The notes under the pieces: generated by a model
The model's database searches: none
The model's input: the letters and a program-made list of their open reading frames with translations, nothing else
Told to the model about the DNA's origin: nothing
In this document: one piece after another, positions 2,336-29,422 of the stretch
Numbering within the stretch: the first letter of the stretch is position 1
How the letters are laid out: each line of letters opens with the position of its first letter
Source of the DNA: Christensenellaceae bacterium
GTDB taxonomy: Bacteria; Bacillota; Clostridia; Christensenellales; DTU072
Assembly: GCA_031259965.1 (NCBI GenBank)
Contig: JAIRKT010000104.1
Span: 1-33,886 of the forward strand
Reading direction: 5' to 3'
DNA: 33,886 nt
Made by a program: the position numbers and the translations under genes

Positions 2336-2363
2336 TATAATGATAATGTCAAAATCTGACATT
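2336..2363 (+). promoter_or_regulatory. Candidate -10 (TATAAT 2336-2341) plus 7-bp inverted repeat AATGTCA-aaatc-TGACATT (2345-2363)
   Basis: Perfect inverted repeat a few nt downstream of a consensus -10, upstream of the SD-supported RND start at 2424. No good -35 seen. Confidence 0.4.
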
Positions 2364-2423
2364 TATTGTTTAGTGCAAAATAAGAAGTTAATAGTTGCTT
2401 TAGCTAACCTGTGGAGGAAATAT

Positions 2424-5400
2424 ATGTTAGGGCGTGTAAGTGTTAAAAAACCCTTTTTGGTAATAGTTATGATTATCATAGTTCTGATAATGGGCGTGAT
2501 TTCATATACTCAAATGAGTATTGATTTTTTGCCCAATATGAACTTCCCGTACTTAGTTGCGGTGACAGTAAGCCCAGGGCTTTCTCCTCAAGAGATAGAA
2601 TCTCAAGTTACCAATTATATTGAAGATGCGGTCCAAGGCATACAAAAGGTTGAGCAAATTATATCTATGTCCATGGAGCATGCATCTATTGTAATAATGC
2701 AATTTGCGTCGGACGCCAACCTTGATACAGCGGTGTTAGATCTTCAGACCGCCCTAGGGTCTGCTAAGGACAATTTGCCAGCAGATGCTATGGATAGTTT
2801 GATTACTAAAATCAATCCTACAATGTTGCCTATTATGAACTTTACAATTGCTGAATCAGGCAAAAGCATAGGAGATTCATCGGAATATTTAACAAAGATT
2901 TATGATGATATACGACGCATAGATGGTGTTTCATCTGTAGACCAAAATGGATTAACAGAAAATCAGGCTTTAGTAATTATTTCAAAAGAGCGTTTAACGA
3001 ATTCGATTGACCAACAATTGTTTTCAGATAATGAGTCATTAAATCCAGCTCAAGGCTCTGATTTAAATGGAGACACTGATGGATCAAGCTTGTTAACCAC
3101 AATTGCGGGATACTTTGCTGATATGATATTATCAATGTTGGATAGTGATACAGTAGGTCTTGCTATATATGCACAAAATCTCGAAGTACCAGCAGGTTCT
3201 ATCATTGAAGGTATTGGTTCATATTTAGTGAAGCTAGGCGACAAAATCTCAACAGCAGAGGAACTTGAAAATTTACCAGTTATGACGATAGATTTTCAAA
3301 AACTATTTGAAAATTACGATGATATATTAGAAGTGCTTAAGTTAATACAAATAGATCAGTCATTAATAGATAGTTTAAAATCTTTCTCGGATGAAGATGG
3401 TGTATACCAAAAGGCTATAGCAAGAATTTTACAAGGGTATTATGATATTATAGATAGTAATACTATATTCGAATTCAAAAATTCTGAAAAGGTATATGTA
3501 ATTAAGCATGATATACTCGATCAACTCGATCAATTTGCTACATGGGGAGAACTAGATAGCATAGATTTAAGTGCTATCCCTGATGCTACCTGGACTGCAA
3601 TAGCTGCTTCACTTGCAATTTCCAGAGATGAGCTATTTGAGTATTTAGAGTTAATTCCGTTTTTTGCATTAACATATGAAGAGAACGGTTCTCCTCAAGC
3701 GTTAACTTTGAATGAAAGTATTAAAAATCTTTTATTAATGGCTACTGATTTAAAAGAAGAACTTAGTCAGATTTCTATAACACTAGAAGAAGTGGATAGT
3801 GTTGCAGTTAGTATTCAAAATCTAGCGGATTATGGTAAGCAAATTGCAGCATTGGTTTCTACAATTGAAACTGATATACTAATAGAAAGGACGGATATTT
3901 TTGAACCTGTATATAAAATGGATAGTGATGGGAATTACACAGATGAAGTCGACTATTACAGATTGCAAATAGGTTATATTGAATTGTTGCAAAAGCTGCC
4001 CGAATTAAAATTGACAATAGGTGCATTTGCAGAAGTTTATCATCTTAATACAGCAAGTAAAATATTGAATCTTGTAAATGGTTCTGCTGGCGTTATGGTT
4101 TCTGTTAACAAACAACCCGACTATTCTACGGTAGATGTTTCAAATGCAGTAAAAGAATATTTAAAGGAAACCAAAGCGGCAAATTCTAATTTTGAATACT
4201 TGATCTTGTCAGATCAAGGCGAATCAGTTATGATGATGATTAATAGTTTAGTTAAGAATATTCTGATTGGAATGGGTCTGGCTATAATAATACTATTCTT
4301 GTTCTTAAGGGATGTGCGTGCAACACTAATTGTAGCTATGTCAATGATAATATCTATCATAGCTGCGTTTGTTTTAATGTATTTTGCAGGAATATCATTA
4401 AATATCCTTTCACTTAGTGGATTATGCCTTGGCGTTGGGATGTTAGTTGATAATTCCATAGTCGTTCTAGAAAACATATATAAACTGCGGAGTGAGGGGA
4501 AGAGTGTTTATAGGGCTTGCGTGGAGGGGGCAAAACAGATGGGTGGTGCTATTACAGCATCTACCATAACAACTATTATAGTTTTTGTTCCTCTCATTTT
4601 CTTAAAAGGAATAACACAGCAGATTATAATGGATATAGCCCTTACATTATCATTTTCACTCATAGCGAGCTTGGTTGTAGCATTAACACTTGTTCCGATG
4701 GCGAGTTCATATATGTTAAAAAAACCAGCTAAAAAAGAGTCAAAATGGTTCCACAGATTTAAAGAATTTTATGGTAAAGTTCTAGACCGAATTTTGAGGT
4801 ATAGATTATTAATAACTTTTAATAATGCAGGCGGATTAAAAAATAATGATATTGTTTTCCAGGATAATGAAAATATTGCAACTAAGAAAACAAAAGCCAA
4901 GAAAGTAAATGCTTCATGGATTATTCCAGAACCAAAAACTAAACGTCAAAAAAACAGTTCAAAAGATGGTTTCAAATTAACTTTGAATTTTAAGGTTATA
5001 ACTTTAGTTCTAGCAGTTATTTTACTACTGGGTGCGGGAACTGGTTTGATTTCAATGAAACGCATATTCTTCCCTGCAACAGACGCTGGTACGTTTACAT
5101 TGTCAGTCTCAGTTGATAGAAACAAATTGCCATCAGACAAAACATATGATGAAAACATAAAAGAAATAATAGATTATATTTATAAAGAGGCTAAAAGCAT
5201 AAAAGATGTAGCAGACGTAGGCGTTGAGTTGTCAGCAGGCTTTAATATGATGGGTGTCAGCATAGGAGCTGGCAATATAACAGCATACGTTACTTTAACA
5301 GAAAACTCAAAAAACTCTAGTGAGGATGTAGCAAAAACCCTAAAAGAAAAATGCATGAACATGAGATGGTTGTCATCAGACTCTTACTCTGTTTCATATA

Positions 5401-7466
5401 ATGCTGATTCTGGTGTACTGGGTTCTATGGGTGACATGATGGCGGGCAACACGCTCTCAATTATCTTCACAGGAAATGATTTAGAGGCAATGAGGGATAA
5501 TGCTGTAGTGCTCGCGGAGATTATTGATAAGGAAAATATACCTGGTGTTGTTTCTGTAGATAATGGGGTTAGTGATGCTGCACAGGAATACCATGTGGTG
5601 TTAGATAAGGAAAAAGCAGCAGCTATAGGGTTAACAGTGGGACAAATATATCAAATGCTATCTAAAGACTTTGAAATTCCTACTTCATCCGCCACAGTAA
5701 ATTATCCTACTTCAGATGGAACTACATCCAAAGGATTATATAACGTTATAGTATATAGAGATGTTTATGAAATCGAGCGTTGGTATGTATTAGATCTTGA
5801 AATTGCTGGTGTTACTGTAGGTACTGAAAAAGCTTACATTGAGCGCGATACAAAGAGCGGTAAAGATTCTTATTATGTACTTGTATCAGATGAAAAAGTG
5901 TCGCTTTCGTATGACTCTAATACCAACACTTTCACATATAATGCTGATAAATTTGCAAACTACAAATTAAAATCATCTGATGCAAACTTAATTACTTATT
6001 ATGATATTCTAAGAAAAGAAGAAATCGATATTTCCACATATCCTATAAAATCAACGATTAGTCTTGGAGATTTGGGACAGTACGATGTTCAGGTCGAATT
6101 ATGGCAAATTTGCGACGAAGAATCTTTTATAAAAGACGAAAACGGAAATGTAATGTACAAAATTACAGGTTATGAAAAAGATCAAAGTGGATATGATAAA
6201 GTAGATGAAAATGGTAACAGAATTCCCATATACGAATATTTAACAGAGAAGGACGCAAATGGCGATGCACTGAAGGACGGAAATGGCAATATAGTATACG
6301 CATATGATAAGGAAGGCAAAAAAATACCCATACCTGTTGGTATAAAGAAAGAAGCAGGTTATATGACTATAGTGCATACTGATGGCGTTGTTCAAATGAC
6401 AGTAACTGTAAAAGTTGATATTGAAAAATATAACATTACAAGTGTAAGCGGCGAAGTGGAAAAAGTAATGAATTCTTTCAGAGAAGCACTACCAGAAGGA
6501 ATCAGTGTTGATTTTGAAGGGGAGCAACAAATGATAATTGATGTTTATCAAACATTGCTTATAGTCCTAGGCGTTGGTATTGTATTAATATACCTAGTAA
6601 TGGTAGCACAATTTCAAAGTGCAAAACTCCCATTTATTATAATGTTCACAATACCATTAGCATTTACTGGAAGTGTGTTCGCGCTGTTAGTGTCAGGATT
6701 CCCAATCAGTGTTGTCGCAATGGTCGGCCTCATAATATTAATGGGCGTCGTTGTTAACAATGGTATAGTCTTTATAGACAACGTTAGACGTCTAATAGAT
6801 AGTGGTTTAAGCAAACACGATGCACTAGTAAAAACTGCACGTGAAAGACTTAGACCAATTTTAATGACAGCATTAACTACAATAATAGCGTTGTTTGGTA
6901 TGGCTCTAGATGGTTCTGCCTCAGGGGCTATGATGCAACCAATGGGAATTGCAACACTCGGCGGATTATTCTATGCTACATTCCTAACACTCTTTGTTGT
7001 TCCGATTATGTTTGATTTACTCGATAAAGGACGCAAGAGTCGATATGCGGACGAAGATAAGGATATAGAGTTTCAAGACGATAATGATAAAAACAATCAG
7101 CTAGAAAGCGCTGATGTGCAGCCAGCTCTAGTTGGGGCGGATTCAAAACCTGAGCTGGTTGGAAACGATTATCCATTCCTTACAATTTCGAATATTGAGA
7201 TTACTAACAAATCTGTTATGGAGAACAACTCTGCTACAAATAACACAGATGGAATTGATTTAGGGAATTCCAATAACCCTATCTACAATGAAGACCTAGT
7301 TACAAAAAGCAATTCTATCTATGATGAGTTGTTTGCCGAGGTGGGCAGTGGAGATAATGAGGAAAAGATAATATCAAATCCATCTGATGAGAATATACCA
7401 GAAGAATTAGACTGCAAAAATGAAAATATAGCAAGTGATAATGATAAGACGAGCACAGATGAGTAA
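2424..7466 (+). CDS. RND-superfamily efflux transporter permease (AcrB/HAE1-like), unusually large
   Basis: ORF track starts at 2340, but GGAGGAAA (2413-2420) sits directly upstream of ATG 2424 (MLGRVSVKKPFLVIVMIIIVLIMGVISYTQMSIDFLPNMNFPYLVAVTVSPGLSPQEIE). Two RND-type TM clusters (GLCLGVGMLVDNSIVVLENIYKLR and GLIILMGVVVNNGIVFIDNVRRL...RLRPILMTALTTIIALFGMAL). Confidence 0.93.
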   Translation: MLGRVSVKKPFLVIVMIIIVLIMGVISYTQMSIDFLPNMNFPYLVAVTVSPGLSPQEIESQVTNYIEDAVQGIQKVEQIISMSMEHASIVIMQFASDANLDTAVLDLQTALGSAKDNLPADAMDSLITKINPTMLPIMNFTIAESGKSIGDSSEYLTKIYDDIRRIDGVSSVDQNGLTENQALVIISKERLTNSIDQQLFSDNESLNPAQGSDLNGDTDGSSLLTTIAGYFADMILSMLDSDTVGLAIYAQNLEVPAGSIIEGIGSYLVKLGDKISTAEELENLPVMTIDFQKLFENYDDILEVLKLIQIDQSLIDSLKSFSDEDGVYQKAIARILQGYYDIIDSNTIFEFKNSEKVYVIKHDILDQLDQFATWGELDSIDLSAIPDATWTAIAASLAISRDELFEYLELIPFFALTYEENGSPQALTLNESIKNLLLMATDLKEELSQISITLEEVDSVAVSIQNLADYGKQIAALVSTIETDILIERTDIFEPVYKMDSDGNYTDEVDYYRLQIGYIELLQKLPELKLTIGAFAEVYHLNTASKILNLVNGSAGVMVSVNKQPDYSTVDVSNAVKEYLKETKAANSNFEYLILSDQGESVMMMINSLVKNILIGMGLAIIILFLFLRDVRATLIVAMSMIISIIAAFVLMYFAGISLNILSLSGLCLGVGMLVDNSIVVLENIYKLRSEGKSVYRACVEGAKQMGGAITASTITTIIVFVPLIFLKGITQQIIMDIALTLSFSLIASLVVALTLVPMASSYMLKKPAKKESKWFHRFKEFYGKVLDRILRYRLLITFNNAGGLKNNDIVFQDNENIATKKTKAKKVNASWIIPEPKTKRQKNSSKDGFKLTLNFKVITLVLAVILLLGAGTGLISMKRIFFPATDAGTFTLSVSVDRNKLPSDKTYDENIKEIIDYIYKEAKSIKDVADVGVELSAGFNMMGVSIGAGNITAYVTLTENSKNSSEDVAKTLKEKCMNMRWLSSDSYSVSYNADSGVLGSMGDMMAGNTLSIIFTGNDLEAMRDNAVVLAEIIDKENIPGVVSVDNGVSDAAQEYHVVLDKEKAAAIGLTVGQIYQMLSKDFEIPTSSATVNYPTSDGTTSKGLYNVIVYRDVYEIERWYVLDLEIAGVTVGTEKAYIERDTKSGKDSYYVLVSDEKVSLSYDSNTNTFTYNADKFANYKLKSSDANLITYYDILRKEEIDISTYPIKSTISLGDLGQYDVQVELWQICDEESFIKDENGNVMYKITGYEKDQSGYDKVDENGNRIPIYEYLTEKDANGDALKDGNGNIVYAYDKEGKKIPIPVGIKKEAGYMTIVHTDGVVQMTVTVKVDIEKYNITSVSGEVEKVMNSFREALPEGISVDFEGEQQMIIDVYQTLLIVLGVGIVLIYLVMVAQFQSAKLPFIIMFTIPLAFTGSVFALLVSGFPISVVAMVGLIILMGVVVNNGIVFIDNVRRLIDSGLSKHDALVKTARERLRPILMTALTTIIALFGMALDGSASGAMMQPMGIATLGGLFYATFLTLFVVPIMFDLLDKGRKSRYADEDKDIEFQDDNDKNNQLESADVQPALVGADSKPELVGNDYPFLTISNIEITNKSVMENNSATNNTDGIDLGNSNNPIYNEDLVTKSNSIYDELFAEVGSGDNEEKIISNPSDENIPEELDCKNENIASDNDKTSTDE

Positions 7467-11414: not shown

Positions 11415-12476
11415 TTATTCCTCAATACTATCAAAATATTGGTTTATGTTTGCAATCATGCGATCTGCAGCGGTAAAACCGCCAGTCATAGTATACCATG
11501 ATTCGCCCGTTAGAAGGTATATATTATTGTTTTTAAATGCCTTTGTTTGCTTAATTACTGTATCTCCAATGAAATTCTCATAACCTGCACCAGAGCCTAT
11601 AGTAGCTGATCTGTCTAAAACAAAGATGAGATCTGGGTTTTGTTCTAGAACGTATTCTGCCCGTGCTGTTAGACCATGAGCGTCAGTCCATTGTACAGTG
11701 TTTGGATCGATAGGTAAGAATCCAAAATCCTCATAAAGCATATCAAATCTGCTATTAACATTGAATACAGACATGGTTGTTTGATCTACCATCATTACAA
11801 AAAGGGCTGTTTTTTTGGAGGCAATTGCTTTAGCTTGAATTTCTGCAATATTACTTTTAATCTCTTGGAATTTGATCGCAATTTCGACGTTTTTAAATAT
11901 CCTAGCTAATATATAAGCATTGCGCTCCATATCGTTCACCAAATTTGAATTTGATGAGTTGACAGATATCTTAATAAATTTTGTATTTGGATATCTGTCA
12001 TATGCTGATTTTTTGAATGCAGCGGCATCCTCTGTACCTAGACGATTCCCATCAACGTCCATTCCAAATGAACGTCCTCCTAGAATAACCAATTCAGGTT
12101 GGATAAGATCCAAAACGTCAAAATCAACATAGAACAAGGAACCACCAGAATAAACATTTTCCATAGTCTTATAACTAGCTAAATCAGCAGGTAATCCATC
12201 TTTGTTTGGAACAACTAATTTTTCGATGCCTGATGTGGCAAACCCTACACTATCTAAGATGTCCAAAACACCGTAATCATAAATAGCTACGTTTTTAGGA
12301 TTTGTTTTCAGTGTATGCTCTACACCATCAGCATCAACAATTTTGACTTCAGGTCTGGTATCCTCAGTACCTGTTGTATTCTCACTTTCATCCTTGTTGC
12401 AAGAACTAAGTGCCATGATACCAATAACTAACATGGCGATCAGCGCCATTGTTATAAATAAATATTTTCTTTTCAT
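11415..12476 (-). CDS. Iron-siderophore ABC transporter substrate-binding lipoprotein (CeuE/YclQ-like)
   Basis: Signal peptide with lipobox (MALSSC), PKNVAIYDYGVLDILDSVG, periplasmic binding fold, end of the ABC operon. Confidence 0.88.
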   Translation of the reverse strand: MKRKYLFITMALIAMLVIGIMALSSCNKDESENTTGTEDTRPEVKIVDADGVEHTLKTNPKNVAIYDYGVLDILDSVGFATSGIEKLVVPNKDGLPADLASYKTMENVYSGGSLFYVDFDVLDLIQPELVILGGRSFGMDVDGNRLGTEDAAAFKKSAYDRYPNTKFIKISVNSSNSNLVNDMERNAYILARIFKNVEIAIKFQEIKSNIAEIQAKAIASKKTALFVMMVDQTTMSVFNVNSRFDMLYEDFGFLPIDPNTVQWTDAHGLTARAEYVLEQNPDLIFVLDRSATIGSGAGYENFIGDTVIKQTKAFKNNNIYLLTGESWYTMTGGFTAADRMIANINQYFDSIEE

Positions 12477-12582: not shown

Positions 12583-13569
12583 CTAACTAAACTTTTTTGC
12601 GTTAGAATTACTTGCAGCCTTTTTAGATTTAAACTTATCAGCAAAATACTTGAATTTAAAAAATTCTTGCATTTTATTTTTATTTGTTTTTAAATCTTCT
12701 CGAGTACTGTCATGAGACAATACATCTTGTTGATTAGTTGAATTTGTCAGTTTTGCACAATGTTTATTTTCCTCATGGATGTGTGAGTTCTCACCATGCC
12801 TGTGTGAATTGTGCCCATAGTAAAGACAAACACGTCTGTTGTCATGTTCTATTATGTTAAAGTCATGATCAAAAACATTATTTAAAACATCACAGCAAAC
12901 AATTTCTTTAACACTACCTTGATTAATAATTTTTCCATCTTTCATTGCTACTATATAATCTGCATATGCAGATGCAAAGTTAATATCATGTAAGACAACA
13001 ACTACGGTTTTATTTAAACGTCTAACTAGTTTTCTAATGATGTGCATCATTTCCACTGAGTATTTGATATCGAGATTGTTTAAAGGTTCATCTAGAAATA
13101 TGTATTTTGTGTCTTGTGCTAGTATCATAGCTATAAAAGCACGTTGGCGTTGCCCACCAGATAATTCGTCTATAAATTTGTCGCGTATATCATTTAGTTT
13201 CATGAATCGAATGCTTTCTTCGATTTTTTCGCGGTCCTCTGCTTTTAGCCTCCCCCCACAATGAGGAAAGCGTCCAAATTCAACTAATTCATTTATAGTA
13301 ACTTTTAAACTGAGAGATTGTGTTTGTTTGAGTACCGCAATTTGTTTTGCAACTTCGCGTGTTTTGATTGATTTAATGTTGATATTATCTAACAAAACTT
13401 CCCCAGAGATAACAGGTAATAATCTTGATGCTACACCCAACAAAGTTGATTTGCCGGCGCCATTTGCGCCTATTAAAGCAGTAATCGCATTTTCTTTTAT
13501 GTCTAGTGATATGTTATCAAGCACATGCTCTCGTCCGTATGATTGGACTATATTTCTTATCTGGATCAT
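12583..13569 (-). CDS. Iron-siderophore ABC transporter ATP-binding protein with His-rich C-terminal extension
   Basis: Walker A GANGAGKST, signature ELSGGQRQRAFIAM, Walker B YIFLDEPLNNLD. ATG 13569 overlaps the upstream permease TGA (ATGA). Tail HNSHRHGENSHIHEENKH. Confidence 0.92.
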   Translation of the reverse strand: MIQIRNIVQSYGREHVLDNISLDIKENAITALIGANGAGKSTLLGVASRLLPVISGEVLLDNINIKSIKTREVAKQIAVLKQTQSLSLKVTINELVEFGRFPHCGGRLKAEDREKIEESIRFMKLNDIRDKFIDELSGGQRQRAFIAMILAQDTKYIFLDEPLNNLDIKYSVEMMHIIRKLVRRLNKTVVVVLHDINFASAYADYIVAMKDGKIINQGSVKEIVCCDVLNNVFDHDFNIIEHDNRRVCLYYGHNSHRHGENSHIHEENKHCAKLTNSTNQQDVLSHDSTREDLKTNKNKMQEFFKFKYFADKFKSKKAASNSNAKKFS

Positions 13570-14579
13570 AGTTTTTTGTTCTCCTTTAATATTAAATAAA
13601 ACATATAAGAGCATCCAATAGCATCTATTATAACTGTAACAGGAACGGATCCCTCTGTTAATTCTGTTAAGGCCTGTCCAAAGACTAGTGCAAATGTTGC
13701 TATCAAGGCGCTAGCTAAAAATAAAATAAAATGCTTGTTAGTTTTAAATATTTCTCTTGTTATGTTTACAGCTAGCAAACCGAGGAAAGTCAAACTTCCT
13801 ATAAGTGCGGTTGCTATTGACATTCCCAGGGAGATCATTACTAAGTTAAAATTTGTTTCCTTTAAGTAATTTAAACCCAGATTTTTTGCATTATCCTCAC
13901 CTAGCGCTAATATGTTATATGATCTGTGGCGTATCAAAAAAATACTACAAATAACAATCATAAATGGGCTTAAGAATATTGCGAGTTTAGCATTCATGCT
14001 GTTTATTGAAACAGCTGTAGCGGCTTGCAATTGATTGAATTTAGTAGGATCCATTAGTGTTTGCAAATAAGTGGAACCGCTTCGTATGATCCCTGACAAG
14101 ATCAAACCAAATAAGAGCAAAAAGACTATATTGTTCTTAGTATTTCGTAATACAGCTCCATACATCAGCATAGAGACAATTAGCATAGCACCAGCTGTAA
14201 TTGCAAAGTTTAGATAAACATTAGAAAAAATCTTTGTAGACGTTCCTAAAAAGAATACAATTACTGTTTGTGTGCCGATGAATATTGAGTCAAAACCAAT
14301 CATAGAAGGTGTTAATATTCTACTACCAGTTGTTGTCTGAAAGGCCAGACTTACAAATGCTATTATGAATGCTGAAACGGACATTCCAACAAGTGTGCCA
14401 ACTATGCGCTCTGAGATAGATTTAAAAGCTTGAGCTGTCATTGGTAAACCAACCTTTTGGGATTTTGCATATGTTCTTGAGTAAAAGTACAATGCAATTG
14501 CACCAACGATTGCAAAAATGATAATAGCAAAAATTATTTTCTGCAGCCTTTTAGATGGTCTGTAATTAAGTTTAATCAT
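13566..14579 (-). CDS. Iron-siderophore ABC transporter permease (FecCD family)
   Basis: FecCD-type motifs (ALGEDNAKNLGLNY, GSLTFLGLLAVNITREIF); ORF track start 14603, internal ATG 14579 overlaps the previous gene's end. Exact start uncertain. Confidence 0.9.
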   Translation of the reverse strand: MIKLNYRPSKRLQKIIFAIIIFAIVGAIALYFYSRTYAKSQKVGLPMTAQAFKSISERIVGTLVGMSVSAFIIAFVSLAFQTTTGSRILTPSMIGFDSIFIGTQTVIVFFLGTSTKIFSNVYLNFAITAGAMLIVSMLMYGAVLRNTKNNIVFLLLFGLILSGIIRSGSTYLQTLMDPTKFNQLQAATAVSINSMNAKLAIFLSPFMIVICSIFLIRHRSYNILALGEDNAKNLGLNYLKETNFNLVMISLGMSIATALIGSLTFLGLLAVNITREIFKTNKHFILFLASALIATFALVFGQALTELTEGSVPVTVIIDAIGCSYMFYLILKENKKL

Positions 14580-15609
14580 GCGTAACTTGTGGCTCCTTAT
14601 CATTTGTACTAATAATGTGATTTTTCTTAATTTTTGTTTGCTTTGATCGCTTTACACCTATTATTATGTAAATCATAAATATAATGCCGCCAAATATACT
14701 TATAGTCAAACTCACCGACATTTCAAATGGGAAGATTACAAGTCTACTAATAATGTCGCAGAGCAGCACAAAATCCGCACCAAAAAACATAAGGTCAGTG
14801 ATAGTTTTCTTGATATTATCACCATAAAAAGTTGACGTCATGTTAGGTATGATCAATCCAACAAAAGGAAGTGGACCTACTGCTGTATAGCTGGCAGCAC
14901 TCACTAATGCTATTATTACGAGTCCTAAAAAAACTACACGATTGTAATTTAGTCCGAGATTTTTTGAAAAATCCTCACCCAAACCTATAATCGAAAATTT
15001 TGATGAAAAAAGGATAGCTAAGACCAAAGGAATTAGTATCACATAAATCATAGTGAAATTTCCAATTTTAGCAAATGTACCATTGTTAATAGTTTGAAGC
15101 ATTTGCATAACATCGAATCTATATGCTATAAGTGTGGTTATAGCGGATATTAGACCACCATACATCATTCCAATCAGTGGAATATACACAGCGTCTCTAA
15201 CTTTGAGATGATTAATAACACTCGTAAATAATAAAGTGGATATTAAAGAAAAGAAAAAAGCAAATAATGTCTGTATTATTCCAGACTGTGTGCTAAGTAA
15301 TATGAAAGCTATTATAATGCCCAGCCCTGCAGCATTTGTAGCCCCTGCTGTAGATGGTGACATGAATTTGTTTCGACTTATTGCTTGCATTATAAGACCA
15401 GCTACGCTAAGACCTGCTGCGGCTAAAATTACAGCAAGGGTGCGTGGTAGACGACTAACCCATATAATCTGCCATGCTAATTCATTTCCTGTTAGTAAGT
15501 TTTTTATAGTAACATCCTTAACAGCGCCTATTAAAAGTGAGACAATGAATAAAGCAGCGAATATTACAATAATTACTAAACGTTTGATTTTGAAAGTAGT
15601 ATACTTCAT
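14572..15609 (-). CDS. Iron-siderophore ABC transporter permease (FecCD family)
   Basis: LPRTLAVILAAAGLSVAGLIMQAISRNKFMSPSTAGATNAAGLG, PLPFVGLIIPNM. Start set to ATG 15609 (MKYTTFKIKR) with AAAGGG upstream; the track start 15627 lies inside a palindrome. Confidence 0.92.
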   Translation of the reverse strand: MKYTTFKIKRLVIIVIFAALFIVSLLIGAVKDVTIKNLLTGNELAWQIIWVSRLPRTLAVILAAAGLSVAGLIMQAISRNKFMSPSTAGATNAAGLGIIIAFILLSTQSGIIQTLFAFFFSLISTLLFTSVINHLKVRDAVYIPLIGMMYGGLISAITTLIAYRFDVMQMLQTINNGTFAKIGNFTMIYVILIPLVLAILFSSKFSIIGLGEDFSKNLGLNYNRVVFLGLVIIALVSAASYTAVGPLPFVGLIIPNMTSTFYGDNIKKTITDLMFFGADFVLLCDIISRLVIFPFEMSVSLTISIFGGIIFMIYIIIGVKRSKQTKIKKNHIISTNDKEPQVTHD

Positions 15610-15619
15610 TAAACCCTTT

Positions 15620-15635
15620 GTTAGCATATGCTAAC
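15620..15635. promoter_or_regulatory. 16-bp perfect palindrome GTTAGCATATGCTAAC, operator candidate (copy 1)
   Basis: Identical to copy at 16005-16020; lies 3 nt downstream of a possible minus-strand -10 (TATATG 15644-15639, -35 TTGATG 15667-15662, 17-nt spacer). Confidence 0.75.
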
Positions 15636-16004
15636 TGTCATATATAAATTAAGTTGATTTTCATCAACTAATAATCTTAGGAAAATTGACTTTAACTAAG
15701 GAATTAAACCAAATAGAAATTAACAAAACTCGTCAGAACTTTAATGAAATACCACCTGTTTTAACTGTTATAAAAGGGAGGTCTTTGCATTAATGATTGT
15801 ACCGCCAAAAGTATTTTCACACTAAAACGGCTCTAAAAATTCTAAACTTTGATCATAAAAGCCAATAAAACACATATTTTTCTGATTTAATTCTAACAAA
15901 AAAACAAAATTATAATGAGTAATATGCTTTTGGCGACATAGTCATTAATAAATCAAATATGTTAAAATACATAGTTAATTGTAGTTAAATTCATTATTAA
16001 GAAA

Positions 16005-16055
16005 GTTAGCATATGCTAACTATTAAATTATACTAAAATAATTAAAAAGCGTCAA
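16005..16055 (-). promoter_or_regulatory. Promoter (TTGACG-N17-TATAAT) with 16-bp palindromic operator GTTAGCATATGCTAAC (copy 2) at +1
   Basis: Minus strand: -35 TTGACG (16055-16050), 17-nt spacer, -10 TATAAT (16032-16027), palindrome 16020-16005. Confidence 0.7.
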
Positions 16056-20374: not shown

Positions 20375-21754
20375 TTAGAGTTTTATATCAAATGGCACAA
20401 TTGAAGAAAAACCAACGTTTAATTCATCATCTGTAGGCACGTGATCAGTCATTTCGCCAGAATTATGTTGTGCATATGCCATTAAATCAAAATAACCAGT
20501 ACCTGTTAATCCGAACAAAATAGTTTTCTTTTCACCAGTTTCTTTGCATTTTAAGGCCTCATCAATTGCAACCTTAATAGCATGCGTTGATTCTGGTGCT
20601 GGTAATATACCTTCGGATTTTATGAAAATTTTGGCGGCGTCAAAAACATCGTTTTGAATGCAAGCGCGAGCTTGAATAAACCCATCATCATAAAGTTTAG
20701 AAATAATAGGACTCATTCCATGATATCTAAGACCGCCAGCGTGGTTTGCGGATGGGATAAAGCCATTCCCTAAAGTATACATCTTGATTAAAGGTGTAGT
20801 TCTTGCTGTGTCACCAAAATCATAAACAAATTTACCTCTTGTTAATGAAGGGCATGATGCAGGTTCGACGGCAATAAATGTAATATTGTTTTTACCATTT
20901 AATCTGTCGCCCATGAATGGAGAAATGATACCACCTAGATTAGAACCACCGCCAGCGCAGCCAATTATTATATCTGGAGTGATACCATATTTATCCATAG
21001 CTATCTTGCATTCCAAACCGACTACAGATTGGTGAAGTATTACGTGATCTAAAACACTGCCCAACACATACCGACAATTTTCAGTTGTAAGCGCCTGTTC
21101 AAGTGCTTCACTTATAGCACATCCCAATGAACCCCCTGTTGTTGGATTTTCAGCTAATATTTTCTGACCAGCTTTGGTTTTCATTGAAGGCGATGGTATG
21201 ACGCTCGCTCCGTAAGTTTCCATTACGATTTTGCGATAAGGCTTTTGTTCACTTGAGATTTTTACCATGTAAATAGTCAAGTCAATACCATAGAAAGCGC
21301 ATGCCATAGATAGTGCGGTTCCCCACTGTCCAGCACCAGTTTCTGTAGTCAGAGAAGTTAAACCTTCTTGCTTTGCATAATATGCCTGAGCTGCTGCTGA
21401 ATTAAGTTTGTGAGATCCCGAAGTATTATTGCCTTCAAACTTGTAATAAATTTCTGCAGGAGTTCCAAGCACCTTTTCTAAGGAATAAGCACGTATAAGA
21501 GGAGAAGGCCTGAACATTTTATAAAAATCTAAAATGCCATCTGGTATTGGGATTTTTTGATCTGTCTGATTTAATTCCTGATCAACTAATTCCTTGCAAA
21601 AGACAGGATACAGATCACTAGCCACGCATGGTTTTAGCGTGCCTGGGTGAATAAAAGGCGCATGCTTTTCTTTCATGTCTGCTCTTACATTATACCAAAA
21701 CTTTGGCATCTCATCTTCGTTTAGATAAATCTTAACGGGTATATTTTTTGACAT
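20375..21754 (-). CDS. trpB: TrpB2-type tryptophan synthase beta-like protein
   Basis: PLP-fold TrpB2 features (RPSPLIRAYSLEKVLGTPAEIYYKFEGNNTSGSHKLNSAAAQAYYAKQEG, TETGAGQWGTALSMAC, IGCAGGGSNLGG); not adjacent to a trpA. Confidence 0.92.
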   Translation of the reverse strand: MSKNIPVKIYLNEDEMPKFWYNVRADMKEKHAPFIHPGTLKPCVASDLYPVFCKELVDQELNQTDQKIPIPDGILDFYKMFRPSPLIRAYSLEKVLGTPAEIYYKFEGNNTSGSHKLNSAAAQAYYAKQEGLTSLTTETGAGQWGTALSMACAFYGIDLTIYMVKISSEQKPYRKIVMETYGASVIPSPSMKTKAGQKILAENPTTGGSLGCAISEALEQALTTENCRYVLGSVLDHVILHQSVVGLECKIAMDKYGITPDIIIGCAGGGSNLGGIISPFMGDRLNGKNNITFIAVEPASCPSLTRGKFVYDFGDTARTTPLIKMYTLGNGFIPSANHAGGLRYHGMSPIISKLYDDGFIQARACIQNDVFDAAKIFIKSEGILPAPESTHAIKVAIDEALKCKETGEKKTILFGLTGTGYFDLMAYAQHNSGEMTDHVPTDDELNVGFSSIVPFDIKL

Positions 21755-23701: not shown

Positions 23702-25204
23702 ATGAAAAAAGAAAAATACTTAATAAATCCCAATTTGGAAGAGGCCCGGCATTTATCTGAAGGTTATGGGAGAATTCCAGTCAGCCTTGTTTTAAAAAAC
23801 ATAAAAAAAGAGCCATCCGAAGTTTTCCTTATATTAAAAGCCCAAAGCAAGCGTTGTTATATTCTAGAGAGTTTAGAAGATAAAGGTGCAAGAGGGCGCT
23901 ACACAATTTTAGGTTATGATCCAACTCTAGGAATTGATTGTTTAAATGGACATTTAGTCATACGAGGCGATACTGACATTCAGATAGATACTATAAACCC
24001 AGAAGTCTATATAAAAAAAATAATGTCAGAAAACAAATCTCCAAAAATCGAAGGATGCCCACCATTTGTAGGTGGCCTGGTTGGATATTTTTCTTATGAT
24101 TACATTAAATATGCAGAACCAACATTAGCACTTGACGCATTAGACGAGGAAAATTTTAAGGATTTTGATTTAATGTTGTTTGACAAGGTGATTACATTTG
24201 ATCATAAAACTAATGAAATTACGTTGACTATTAGCATTAAAGCAAAAGATCTGAGTGAAAATTACTATAAAGCAGTTAGTGAATTAGCTAATATGCATAG
24301 ATTGATAGATAATGGGATTCAGGCCAAAGTAAAGCCTCTTAAGCTTAAATCTCAATTCGAAAGACTATTTAACAAGCAAGAATATTGTCAAATGGTAATA
24401 AAAGCAAAAGAGCATATATTTGAAGGTGATATTTTTCAGATTGTACTATCTAACAGAATAAGTGCGGAAGCAGAAGGAAGTTTATTTGATACATATTTAG
24501 AATTAAGAAAAAGCAATCCATCACCATACATGTTTTATTTTTCGAGTGATGATATTGAAATAGCAGGGGCTTCACCAGAAACTTTAGTTAAAGTCACGCA
24601 CAAGAAAGCTTTCACATATCCGTTAGCTGGCACAAGACCGAGAGGCAGAACTGATGAAGAGGATTTAAAACTAGAAGTTGAACTTTTAAATGACCAGAAA
24701 GAACTAGCAGAGCACAATATGCTAGTTGATTTGGGAAGAAATGATATTGGAAAAATTTGTGAATTTGGAACGATTAAAGTTGATAAGCATTTAGCAATTG
24801 AGCGTTTCTCACACGTTATGCATATAGGATCTGTCGTCTCTGGCACAATAAAAGACAATTTAGAGGGGATAGATGCCATAGAAGCAGTACTGCCAGCTGG
24901 GACCTTGTCTGGCGCGCCAAAAATACGCGCCTGTGAGATTATTAATAAATTAGAAAACAATAAAAGGGGAATATATGGCGGTGCTATAGGGTACTTGTCA
25001 TTTTCAGGAGACACAGACACCTGTATAGCAATACGAATTGCATTCAAAAAAAATAACAAGGTTTTTGTAAGAAGTGGAGCTGGCATAGTAGCAGATAGTA
25101 TCCCAGAAAAAGAATATGAGGAATGCGAAAATAAAGCAAAGGCTGTATTAAACGCGCTTAGACAGAGTCAAACATCGAGAGGCCAGAATGATTTTATTAA
25201 TTGA
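23702..25204 (+). CDS. trpE: Anthranilate synthase component I
   Basis: FEGDIFQIVLSNR, SPSPYMFYFSS-type motif, TYPLAGTRPRGR, AGAGIVADS-type C-terminus; downstream of the T-box. Confidence 0.97.
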   Translation: MKKEKYLINPNLEEARHLSEGYGRIPVSLVLKNIKKEPSEVFLILKAQSKRCYILESLEDKGARGRYTILGYDPTLGIDCLNGHLVIRGDTDIQIDTINPEVYIKKIMSENKSPKIEGCPPFVGGLVGYFSYDYIKYAEPTLALDALDEENFKDFDLMLFDKVITFDHKTNEITLTISIKAKDLSENYYKAVSELANMHRLIDNGIQAKVKPLKLKSQFERLFNKQEYCQMVIKAKEHIFEGDIFQIVLSNRISAEAEGSLFDTYLELRKSNPSPYMFYFSSDDIEIAGASPETLVKVTHKKAFTYPLAGTRPRGRTDEEDLKLEVELLNDQKELAEHNMLVDLGRNDIGKICEFGTIKVDKHLAIERFSHVMHIGSVVSGTIKDNLEGIDAIEAVLPAGTLSGAPKIRACEIINKLENNKRGIYGGAIGYLSFSGDTDTCIAIRIAFKKNNKVFVRSGAGIVADSIPEKEYEECENKAKAVLNALRQSQTSRGQNDFIN

Positions 25205-25772
25205 TAACTATGATAGTTTTTCGTATAACCTATACCAGCTAGTGGGTGAAATATCAAATGATATAATAAAAATAGTACGAAATAATAAAATAACCTGTGA
25301 TGAAATTAGTGAGTTTTCTCCTTCACATATTATAATATCACCAGGGCCGGGACGTCCAGCAGATGCTGGTGTTTGTGAGATGGTAATAAGTGAATTTTCA
25401 GGCCTTATACCAATTTTGGGTGTATGTTTGGGACATCAGGCAATATGTGAGGTGTTTGGTGCGAAAATTGGTTATGCAAACCAAATTATGCATGGAAAAA
25501 CCAGTGATATAAAAATTGATAATTTAGACTACCTATTTAAAGAATTACCTAAACAAATTGTTGTAGGCAGGTATCATTCATTGGTTGCTATTCCTCATAC
25601 CATGCCCAGTTCATTGAAGGTTATCGCAAAAACGATAAGTGATGAAATAATGGCGGTAAAACACATAGATCATCCTAAAACATATGGTCTTCAATTTCAT
25701 CCAGAATCAATATTAACGCCATATGGGAAAAAGATACTTACAAATTTTTTAGAATTACAAAAAGAGGTTTAA
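25188..25772 (+). CDS. trpG: Anthranilate synthase component II (glutamine amidotransferase)
   Basis: MILLIDNYDSFSYNL, GVCLGHQAI catalytic Cys motif, LQFHPES; overlaps trpE by 17 nt. Confidence 0.97.
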   Translation: MILLIDNYDSFSYNLYQLVGEISNDIIKIVRNNKITCDEISEFSPSHIIISPGPGRPADAGVCEMVISEFSGLIPILGVCLGHQAICEVFGAKIGYANQIMHGKTSDIKIDNLDYLFKELPKQIVVGRYHSLVAIPHTMPSSLKVIAKTISDEIMAVKHIDHPKTYGLQFHPESILTPYGKKILTNFLELQKEV

Positions 25773-25775
25773 ACA

Positions 25776-26792
25776 ATGATTAAAGAAGCTATTAAAGAAG
25801 CAGTAAATTATAGAAATTTAAGTTATGAAATGGCGGAAGGTGTGATGTGCGAAATTATGAGGGGTGAAGCAAGCGATATCCAGATGGCGGCATATTTAAC
25901 AGCGATGTCAATCAAATCCGAATCAATTGAGGAAATTACAGCTTCGGCTGCAGGAATGCGTAAATTTTGCATAAGACCTTTAAACGATGCAGATGCACTA
26001 GAGATCGTAGGGACGGGAGGTGATCATTCAAACTCCTTCAATATATCAACTACATCAGCCTTTGTTGTCGCGGCTGCTGGGATCCCTGTCGCAAAACATG
26101 GCAATAGGGCTGCATCTAGCTTATGTGGTGCTGCGGATGTACTAGAGGCATTGGGCGCGAAAATTGATGTTACCCCAGAAAAAAGCATAAGGATGTTGAA
26201 CAATATAGGATTTTGTTTTTTCTTTGCACAAAACTATCATATATCAATGAAATATGTAGCGCCGATACGAAAAGAGTTAGGAATTAGAACTATATTTAAT
26301 ATATTGGGACCACTTGTAAATCCAGCAGGCGCAAAAATGCAATTACTAGGGGTGCATAGCTCGAATCTAGTTTTTCCAATGGCTCAAGTGTTGTCAAATC
26401 TTGGCGTTAAAACTGGGCTAGTAGTGCACGGGAGGGATGGACTTGACGAAATAACAATAGGGGATGAGACCGATGTTTGTGAAATTAGAGATGGAAAATT
26501 TTCCGAATATACAATAAATCCTACCAAACTTGGTTTTAAAAAACACCCAAAAGAGGCATTGGTTGGAGGCAATCCTGAAAGAAATGCTAGCATACTAAAA
26601 GCCGTCTTGTCAGGCGAGCCTGGAGCTAGGAGGGATGCGGTTTTGTTAAATTCGGCTGCTGCTTTATATATAGCAAGACAAAACACTACACTTGAAGAAA
26701 ACATAGAACTTGCTAAAAAAATCATTGATGAAGGAGATGCACTTGACCTAATGAAACGATATGTGGCTAGCTCTAAAAACGAAGATGAATGA
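25776..26792 (+). CDS. trpD: Anthranilate phosphoribosyltransferase
   Basis: VGTGGDHSNSFNISTTSAFV, KHGNRAASSLCGAADVLEALG, NILGPLVNPA. Confidence 0.97.
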   Translation: MIKEAIKEAVNYRNLSYEMAEGVMCEIMRGEASDIQMAAYLTAMSIKSESIEEITASAAGMRKFCIRPLNDADALEIVGTGGDHSNSFNISTTSAFVVAAAGIPVAKHGNRAASSLCGAADVLEALGAKIDVTPEKSIRMLNNIGFCFFFAQNYHISMKYVAPIRKELGIRTIFNILGPLVNPAGAKMQLLGVHSSNLVFPMAQVLSNLGVKTGLVVHGRDGLDEITIGDETDVCEIRDGKFSEYTINPTKLGFKKHPKEALVGGNPERNASILKAVLSGEPGARRDAVLLNSAAALYIARQNTTLEENIELAKKIIDEGDALDLMKRYVASSKNEDE

Positions 26793-26799
26793 GGCATGT

Positions 26800-27585
26800 A
26801 TGATATTAAATAAGATAGTAGAAAATAAGAAAAAAAAACTGATTGAAATTAAGAAAAATAAGGATTTTTCTAGGGTTAAATCCGATGGAATTGCTTTAGC
26901 TGAATTTGATAGGTTTAAATTTAACTCCACAATAAAAAGGATTAATAACATATCGTTTATTTGTGAAATAAAGAAGGCATCGCCATCAAAAGGAATAATA
27001 AGTGAAAATTTCGATCACAGATCATTAATAGTCGAATATGAAGAGGCCTCTGCAGACGCTTTATCAATTTTGACAGAAACAGATTTTTTTATGGGATCTG
27101 ACAATTACTTAATAGATGCAAAGAAAATTACAAATATACCACTCCTGCGCAAAGATTTTATAATCGACGAATATCAAATATATGAAAGCAAGACGATAGG
27201 AGCGGATGCAATTTTGTTGATTGTTTCTTTGCTAGAAAGAGTACAACTCAGTGACTATTTAAAAATCGCGGATGAACTAGGTTTGTCTGTTTTAGTTGAA
27301 ACAAGAAATAAAAAGGAGATTGATATAGCATTAGAAGCAGACGCCAAAATAATTGGTGTTAATAATAGAGACCTCATGGATTTTTCTGTAAACATATCAA
27401 ATGGATTGAAACTAAAAGAATTTGTACCGGATGATAAAATATTTGTAGCTGAGAGTGGATTTAGATCACGAGAGGATGTTATAATGTATGAAAAAGCAGG
27501 AGCAGATGCTATACTAATAGGCGAGCATCTTATGAAAAGTGACGATAAGTTTGAGTTTTTGTCTAGATTAAGAGGAGACAAATGA
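26800..27585 (+). CDS. trpC: Indole-3-glycerol phosphate synthase
   Basis: ICEIKKASPSKGII, LRKDFIIDEYQIYESKTIGADAILLI, GVNNRDL. Start set to MILNKIVENKKKK with GAGG upstream; track start 26761 overlaps trpD. Confidence 0.95.
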   Translation: MILNKIVENKKKKLIEIKKNKDFSRVKSDGIALAEFDRFKFNSTIKRINNISFICEIKKASPSKGIISENFDHRSLIVEYEEASADALSILTETDFFMGSDNYLIDAKKITNIPLLRKDFIIDEYQIYESKTIGADAILLIVSLLERVQLSDYLKIADELGLSVLVETRNKKEIDIALEADAKIIGVNNRDLMDFSVNISNGLKLKEFVPDDKIFVAESGFRSREDVIMYEKAGADAILIGEHLMKSDDKFEFLSRLRGDK

Positions 27586-28190
27586 GTGCGGACATAAAAA
27601 TTAAAATTTGTGGTATTACGCGAATTGAAGATATTGCTTGTTTGAACGAATCTAAACCTGATTATGTAGGATTTGTATTTGTAAAAAGGAGTAAAAGATA
27701 TTGTGAACCGACGAATGCAATTAATTTGAGAAAAAAATTATCAATGGAAATAACTACAGTAGGCGTTTTTGATAATGAACCTATCACTAACATAATTAAA
27801 TTTTTTAATGAAGGTATAATATCAATTGTTCAATTGCATGGCGGTGAAAATCTGGAATATATTAGAGAGCTAAGATCCAGAATGCCTGGTATAACAATAA
27901 TTAGGGCCATTGATGTGAGCTCTCATGCGAATAGTTATGATATGTATGATGCGGATTATTTGTTGTTAGATAATGGTAAAGGTGGAACTGGTATCACATT
28001 CGAGTGGACCAAAATCAAAAACATAAAGACACCATATTTTTTAGCAGGTGGAATAAATATAAGCAACTTAGAAGATGCTATCAAATATGGCCCATATGCT
28101 ATAGATGTTAGTAGTGGTGTTGAAACCGATGGTTATAAAGATCACAACAAAATCAAACGCATAATTTATGCGTTAAGGAATATGAAATGA
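27582..28190 (+). CDS. trpF: Phosphoribosylanthranilate isomerase
   Basis: [49 protein letters not shown]. Confidence 0.96.
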
Positions 28191-29422
28191 AAATTAAAGG
28201 TGTGAGGCAAAAAATGCTGTATGATAAAGAATCAAATGCGCATGGAAGGTATGGAATTTTTGGCGGACAATACATTCCAGAGACTTTAATGGATGAAGTA
28301 ATAAAACTAGAAGAAAATTATAATTTCTACAAAAATAATCTCTCGTTCAATACTGAATTAAATGAATTATTAAAGAATTATGCTGGCAGACCATCATTGT
28401 TGTATTATGCGAGTAAAATGACAAGCGATTTAGGAGGATGCAAGGTTTATTTAAAAAGAGAAGATTTGAACCATACAGGGTCGCATAAAATAAATAATGT
28501 GCTAGGCCAGGCTCTTTTAGCTAAAAAAATTGGAAAAACCAGAGTCATTGCCGAAACAGGTGCTGGTCAACATGGTGTTGCAACTGCTACAGCAGCTGCA
28601 TTGTTAGGCCTTGAGTGTGAGATTTTCATGGGGGAAGAAGATGTTAAAAGGCAGGCATTAAATGTATACAGGATGGAACTTTTAGGTGCAAAAGTCAACT
28701 CTGTTACGAGTGGGACGGCTACTCTTAAAGATGCGGTAAACGAAACAATGAGAGAGTGGGTTAGCAGGGTTTATGATACACATTATTTACTAGGTTCAGT
28801 TATGGGTCCACATCCATTTCCTATGATTGTTAGAGATTTTCAAAGCATAATAAGTAGCGAAGCACGAGCCCAAATTCTTGATCTTGAGAACAAATTACCA
28901 CATGCTGTAATAGCATGTGTGGGTGGTGGTAGCAATGCAATTGGAATGTTTTATAACTTTATAAACGACAAATCCGTTAGATTAATCGGTTGCGAAGCGG
29001 CAGGCCTAGGAGTTGATACTGACTCTAATGCGGCAACCATTGCAACAGGCAGAGTAGGTGTCTTTCATGGTATGAAATCCTATTTTTGTCAAAATGATGA
29101 TGGCCAAATTAAACCTGTTTACTCGATTTCGGCGGGTTTAGATTATCCAGGAATAGGCCCAGAGCATGCATTCTTACATGCATCAAAAAGAGCTGAGTAC
29201 ATATCAATTAAAGATTCGGAGGCGGTTGATGCTTTTGAATACCTCGCACGAACAGAAGGAATAATATGCGCAATAGAGAGTGCACATGCCATAGCATATG
29301 CAATGAAGTTAGTACCATTAATTTCTAAAGCGGAAAATATAATAGTATGTTTATCAGGACGCGGCGATAAGGATGTTGCAAGTATTGCAAAATATCGTGG
29401 CAGAGATAATATAGAAATTTAA
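28187..29422 (+). CDS. trpB: Tryptophan synthase beta subunit (TrpB1)
   Basis: [80 protein letters not shown]. Start may be 28214 (MLYDKES). Confidence 0.98.

Follow-up and report, generated by a model that had tools for sequence, protein, structure and literature searches.

Why does a siderophore importer carry two identical 16-bp palindromes in front of it, one at its promoter and the other directly before its Shine-Dalgarno sequence? We addressed this question in a window of 33,886 nt, contig C84 of an uncultured Clostridia genome (2.24 Mb, 89% complete). A scan of the window located GTTAGCATATGCTAAC exactly at 15620-15635 and 16005-16020, as the initial annotation had reported, and no further match with up to three mismatches, the average in dinucleotide shuffles being 0.27. 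The window contains three perfect 16-bp palindromes, and two of them are these copies. Read in the direction of transcription, the locus is laid out as follows.

16027-16055, minus strand: distal promoter, TTGACG-N17-TATAAT, read from the sequence and with the same layout in congeners
16005-16020, no strand assigned: distal operator, GTTAGCATATGCTAAC, beginning 6 nt past the -10 and spanning about +1 to +16
15789-15949, no strand assigned: MITE in the leader between the operators, about 161 bp long and bounded by imperfect terminal inverted repeats (about 30 bp)
15652-15669, minus strand: leader RNA hairpin, AGUUGAU-GAAA-AUCAACU, fold -8.6 kcal/mol, containing the supposed proximal -35
15644-15652, minus strand: T-rich tract, TTAATTTAT, which stops 8 nt short of the proximal operator; a weak example of a T-tract
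15620-15635, no strand assigned: proximal operator, GTTAGCATATGCTAAC, within the leader and directly 5' of the Shine-Dalgarno sequence; the proposed roadblock site
15607-15619, minus strand: Shine-Dalgarno-like AAAGGG followed by the ATG start of the first permease gene, read from the sequence
14572-15609, minus strand: permease 1, FecCD family (Pfam FecCD, 1e-60)
13566-14603, minus strand: permease 2, FecCD family (Pfam FecCD, 3.1e-35)
12583-13614, minus strand: importer ATPase (Pfam ABC_tran, 1.7e-30; best NCBIfam model FecE-like, 242 bits, below cut-off)
11415-12476, minus strand: SstD-like substrate-binding lipoprotein of the importer (Pfam Peripla_BP_2, 3.4e-12)

The start of permease 1 was taken as 15609, and the ATG at 15627 given in the list of open reading frames falls inside the operator. 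The substrate-binding lipoprotein scored 130 bits against the NCBIfam SstD model, below its cut-off of 450. Elsewhere, the window carries a tryptophan synthesis operon at 23702-29422 (trpE, G, D, C, F and B, assigned by domains) and an additional TrpB-like gene at 20375-21754. AcrB/RND proteins are usually about 1000 aa long, and an open reading frame of this family at 2340-7466, with 1708 aa, is well above that.

Genome-wide, GTTAGCATATGCTAAC is present in three exact copies, one copy with a single mismatch and two copies of the form GTTAGCAATTGCTAAC; 16-bp matches with three mismatches, one of which lies inside a znuC-like gene, were excluded from the operator count. The pattern GTTAGCN4GCTAAC occurs five times in the 2.24 Mb and its reversed control not at all. 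These five sites belong to the importer (two), a flavodoxin gene, a gene pair for an ABC transporter and a promoter with no open reading frame behind it, and the one-mismatch copy of the palindrome stands 28 nt before feoA. Most of the sites thus precede iron genes, and the palindrome is not scattered over random positions without a link to metal genes. In congeners and in more distant relatives, this motif is again found before feoAB, flavodoxin, importer and dtxR genes; an intragenic occurrence in one genome (G018) was discounted. Two genomes of one genus have the exact palindrome before feoA (G006:C19:7483 and G019:C205:14766), and despite this a DtxR-family protein was detected in neither of them.

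The promoter without an open reading frame (locus L036, from 13834 onward, G000:C8:63833) has a counterpart in a second species (L057, 4132, genome G001, on the other strand). In both species the transcript would form a long hairpin whose changes are paired and whose loop, about 26 nt in length, is conserved, while the flanking sequence diverges. A search of the L036 transcript against Rfam gave no match, and we regard the pair as a candidate iron-regulated small RNA.

Which protein would read these sites? The arms of the palindrome had been likened to DtxR/IdeR half-sites. The canonical DtxR/IdeR operator, TTAGGTTAGSCTAACCTAA, is 19 bp long, and its GTTAG and CTAAC are one base apart. The window sites have a 6-4-6 layout, GTTAGC-N4-GCTAAC, in which the two half-sites are four bases apart; the comparison is supported for the type of regulator but not for the half-sites, which are noncanonical. 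Mixed half-sites, considered as a way to tell recognition of DNA from recognition of RNA, account for 14 of 413 sites, most of the 413 having been gathered with symmetric patterns.

The genome encodes only one DtxR-family protein, C118, of 124 aa and without an SH3 domain, which scores above cut-off against PF01325 (40.8 bits) as well as PF02742 (44.3 bits). Its closest solved structures are the MntR proteins of E. coli and B. subtilis, and in MntR numbering its metal ligands are D8, E11, H77, C99, E102 and H103. Position 99 thus holds Cys and not Glu, like the iron sensors of the family, and this Cys is kept in all clear relatives aligned. There are also two Fur-family proteins in the genome, one closest to PerR models, whose gene adjoins that of a rubredoxin-type protein, and one Zur-like, whose gene adjoins a znu-like operon. 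DtxR homologues with a CxxEH motif were found in 12 of the 118 named loci, among the matches listed, with the operator directly upstream of most; the motif stands directly 5' of dtxR homologues in several genomes (for example L081 and L110), and G001-G003 have a second DtxR homologue. Some relatives replace the GTTAGC form by a variant operator, GTTCGCN4GCGAAC. P39 of DtxR contacts DNA, and the residue at this position is Ser in 8/8 genomes with GTTCGC and Pro or Ala in 10/10 with GTTAGC (Fisher 2.3e-5, from a hand-assembled table that ignores kinship); two genomes of one genus, G015 and G024, fall on opposite sides of the split.

The single DtxR-type protein with its iron-type Cys, the presence of sites upstream of dtxR and feoAB in relatives and the helix residue that tracks the operator all agree with the DtxR-type regulator that had been suggested, and the sequence comparisons make it a well supported reading that the operators belong to an iron-responsive repressor of this type. 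We infer that C118 binds the palindrome from its genomic association, its autoregulatory position and the covariation of helix and operator. Separately, DtxR-like winged-helix proteins of about 120-130 aa are encoded directly behind operator modules at five loci (L129, L139, L166, L227 and L220); some of these genes lie in feo operons, and the L129 protein, when aligned, has no metal ligands.

At the distal copy, the minus-strand promoter string and the operator over about +1 to +16 are as first described, and the layout is kept in congeners. For the same gene G001 reads TTGACA-N17-TATAAT-TATAGA-GTTAGC, that is, promoter, 6 nt and operator, and G002 reads TATAAT, 6 nt and operator with a weaker -35. 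The distal site is a promoter operator, at which a bound repressor would probably block initiation by promoter occlusion.

The proximal copy lies in different surroundings. The expectation of a long leader that carries an operator near its ribosome-binding site is supported, since this copy comes directly before the Shine-Dalgarno sequence, and the AAAGGG and ATG noted behind it are found at 15607-15619. The window, G001 and G002 share the leader order hairpin, T-rich stretch, operator, Shine-Dalgarno sequence. The hairpin at the equivalent place is GUUGAU-GCAA-GUCAAC in G001 and AACGACUGGUC-UUCG-GAUUAGUCGUU in G002, so that the three leaders have different stems and the stable tetraloops GAAA, GCAA and UUCG. 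Operator start-to-start distances are 385 bp in the window, 167 bp in G001 and 110 bp in G002. The leaders of the two congeners are shorter and do not align over the MITE, of which the genome has about 20 full or partial copies, the best 99% identical (among them G000:C20:9394-9554 and C34:8469-8631). We rejected the MITE as the carrier of the operators: neither of them is within it, and both are present in relatives that lack it.

Paired operators recur well beyond this genus. Of 396 genomes from the order, 37 contain two operators spaced 37-67 bp apart, and none contains the control pattern; in named genomes such pairs were seen in at least 118 stretches, which are nearly all from Clostridia among the matches listed. 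From 210 operators with a Shine-Dalgarno sequence and start codon within 75 nt downstream we removed those directly preceded by a promoter match, and dereplication left 109; most were gathered with the site-pair pattern, so this is not a random sample of sites. Their common layout is hairpin, T-tract, 8-10 nt and operator. T content is 55-71% at positions -17 to -10 relative to the operator, about 25% farther upstream and 9% at -8 (p = 1.5e-22 against controls), and runs of at least four T end mostly 8-10 nt before the operator. A run of at least five T that ends 7-13 nt before the operator was present at 46.8% of the 109 sites; the corresponding shares were 0.8% among control gene starts (n = 128) and 3% among promoter-type operators (n = 33). 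The T signal is sharper when the sequences are aligned by operator (0.60) than by start codon (0.40).

RNA upstream of the T-tract folded more stably than its dinucleotide shuffles, with a mean z of -1.39 overall and of -1.44 among the 82 sites whose folded region contains no nearby upstream operator. A strict terminator rule was satisfied by 40 of the 109 sites; for comparison, 4 of the 128 controls passed it, and shuffled sequences gave 2.9 on average. At feoA-feoB junctions a run of five or more T was present in 8/8 with little or no hairpin. Terminator strength must therefore vary: just over one third of the Shine-Dalgarno-proximal sites are textbook terminators, and some, such as those of feoB, have a T-tract with hardly any hairpin. 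The intrinsic-terminator features of the window are limited to a weak AT-rich hairpin and TTAATTTAT, whose position matches the T peak of the relatives.

In two loci the leader operator stands without a promoter operator. A ZIP-type transporter gene (L041, G031) and an ABC gene pair (L060, G002) each have an operator-free, perfect TTGACA/TATAAT about 80 bp upstream, followed by a hairpin, a T-tract (T8 and T6, respectively) and then the operator. Here, as at the proximal site of the window, the operator lies downstream of the predicted start and outside the promoter, where a roadblock would act. The orthologues of L060 in G000 and G001 use a promoter operator instead, so promoter operator and leader module look interchangeable. 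In the Oscillospiraceae, an importer whose genes are ordered as in the window (L185) shows the complete series: promoter, operator, hairpin, T7, 8-9 nt, operator, Shine-Dalgarno sequence.

Such leaders also precede genes of other kinds. In Christensenella and G085 (L170, L171) a paired-operator leader stands before a gene for a NifH-like ATPase, which is probably iron regulated, judging by this leader. DUF3793 and DUF2325 proteins are recurrent targets (L172, L072, L184 and others), which suggests roles for them in iron shortage. Loci L152-L161 (family f15, genus g64) have an extra operator upstream of the feoA -35, followed by T7, and the stem of this operator could also serve to terminate transcription that arrives from upstream.

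We consider it rather probable that the importer is controlled by a two-site iron repressor, with a block of initiation at the distal copy and a roadblock at the proximal copy that releases polymerase at a built-in terminator. This model is based on the sites, their association with iron genes, the association of regulator and operator, the promoter geometry, the phased hairpin and T-tract of the relatives and the operator-free promoters; from these we infer binding, iron response, roadblock and termination. With sufficient iron, a short repressor of the DtxR/MntR family would occupy the distal copy and cover the start site, preventing initiation. The iron-loaded repressor would also sit on the proximal copy within the transcribed leader, and polymerase that had escaped or arrived from upstream would stall there. 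The stalled enzyme would then have its active site at the hairpin and T-rich tract, about 8-17 bp short of the operator, and would release the RNA before the ribosome-binding site had been synthesized. When iron is short, the repressor would leave both copies and the siderophore importer would be made. In experiments with EcoRI Q111, the active site of a polymerase stopped by a bound protein lies about 14 bp before that protein. This stall position coincides with the T-tract, so that a weak RNA-DNA hybrid together with the hairpin would favour release. Strong leader hairpins such as that of G131 count against the model, which does not account for their read-through at low iron. The second DtxR homologue of G001-G003 and the feoA palindromes of G006 and G019 are further points against it. 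The proximal copy in the window may be less efficient, given its weak T-tract and the MITE in the leader; it represents its class poorly, and the support for the mechanism comes from the relatives.

Plain repression from two operators, perhaps by looping or cooperation and with no part for the hairpin and T-tract in iron control, would be an alternative account, which we think unlikely. It is consistent with the distal site at the promoter, with how common multi-operator promoters are and with operator pairs that flank promoters in G276, G363 and G086. However, the T-tract keeps a fixed phase to the operator and is oriented with transcription although the operator itself is symmetric, the two sites stand at widely differing distances from each other (about 37-385 bp), and some promoters are operator-free with an operator only in the leader. 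We give still less credence to an attenuator at the RNA level, riboswitch-like or formed by alternative pairing of palindromic RNA hairpins, with the proximal DNA operator incidental. The palindromes can themselves form RNA hairpins, and hairpins with stable tetraloops are conserved; but there was no match to an Rfam family, a non-exhaustive check saw no conserved alternative structure, and at other loci the motif of the proximal copy is placed ahead of the -35, where it is not transcribed. That the proximal copy is the operator of a second, tandem promoter, as initially proposed, is hardly to be expected: the string TTGATG-N17-TATATG is present at 15639-15667, but its supposed -35 is the 5' arm of the hairpin kept in two congeners, the -10 is absent in G001 and weak in G002, and relatives are T-rich there and not TATAAT-like. 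The differing stems with stable tetraloops and the missing -10 in G001 point to RNA structure rather than a promoter at this site, and of the proposed two-module operator with tandem promoters the two-module design stands and the second promoter does not.

Beyond the importer, we regard it as an evenly balanced proposition that repressor-gated terminators are used by many Clostridia, a metal-loaded repressor 8-10 bp past a hairpin and T-tract making a leaky terminator efficient. Such modules could replace promoter operators, as in L060 compared with its congeners, or stack in tandem, as in G094 and G005.

The arrangement resembles that of eukaryotic RNA polymerase I terminators, where Reb1 or TTF-I pauses polymerase and a T-rich element just upstream favours release. 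Those terminators are constitutive in rDNA, with no RNA hairpin and no metal regulation, and the proteins are unrelated; the bound protein and the T-rich element upstream of it are alike. Closer in protein family is YtgR of Chlamydia trachomatis, a DtxR-family iron-dependent repressor with an operator in the transcribed region of trpRBA, where transcripts end at the operator in an iron- and YtgR-dependent manner; YtgR represses a promoter as well (PMC6504234). It is one reported case, and the part of that report used here describes no phased hairpin or T-tract (PMC6504234), whereas in Clostridia the architecture is repeated and adjoins the Shine-Dalgarno sequence. Roadblocks by PurR, GalR, ArsR, CcpA, CodY and LacI likewise involve a DNA-bound repressor that halts elongating polymerase downstream of the promoter, and in the LacI system the stalled polymerase is released mainly by Mfd (PMC10310618, PMC4132739); the Clostridia leaders differ in having terminator-like sequence built in at the predicted stall point. 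In C. diphtheriae, roadblocking has been suggested for DtxR sites that overlap the start site or follow it (PMC5784534). Known DtxR/IdeR and MntR regulons share the regulator family, the palindromic operator and targets in iron or manganese uptake, and differ in that here the operator is 6-4-6, the protein is short and SH3-less, and paired leader sites come with a terminator-like module. Roadblocking by a DtxR-type repressor is thus already known, while a terminator phased to its operator appears to be new; we found no description of one in the open-access literature.

If true, the model would define how iron control is encoded in a large section of the Clostridia, most of it uncultured. It would also supply a general mechanism open to testing, whereby a repressor influences elongation by way of a terminator matched to the site it binds. 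Operators that lie past the start site could then be predicted to be functional elements, and the fixed spacing would offer a way to measure the point at which a stalled bacterial polymerase is released.
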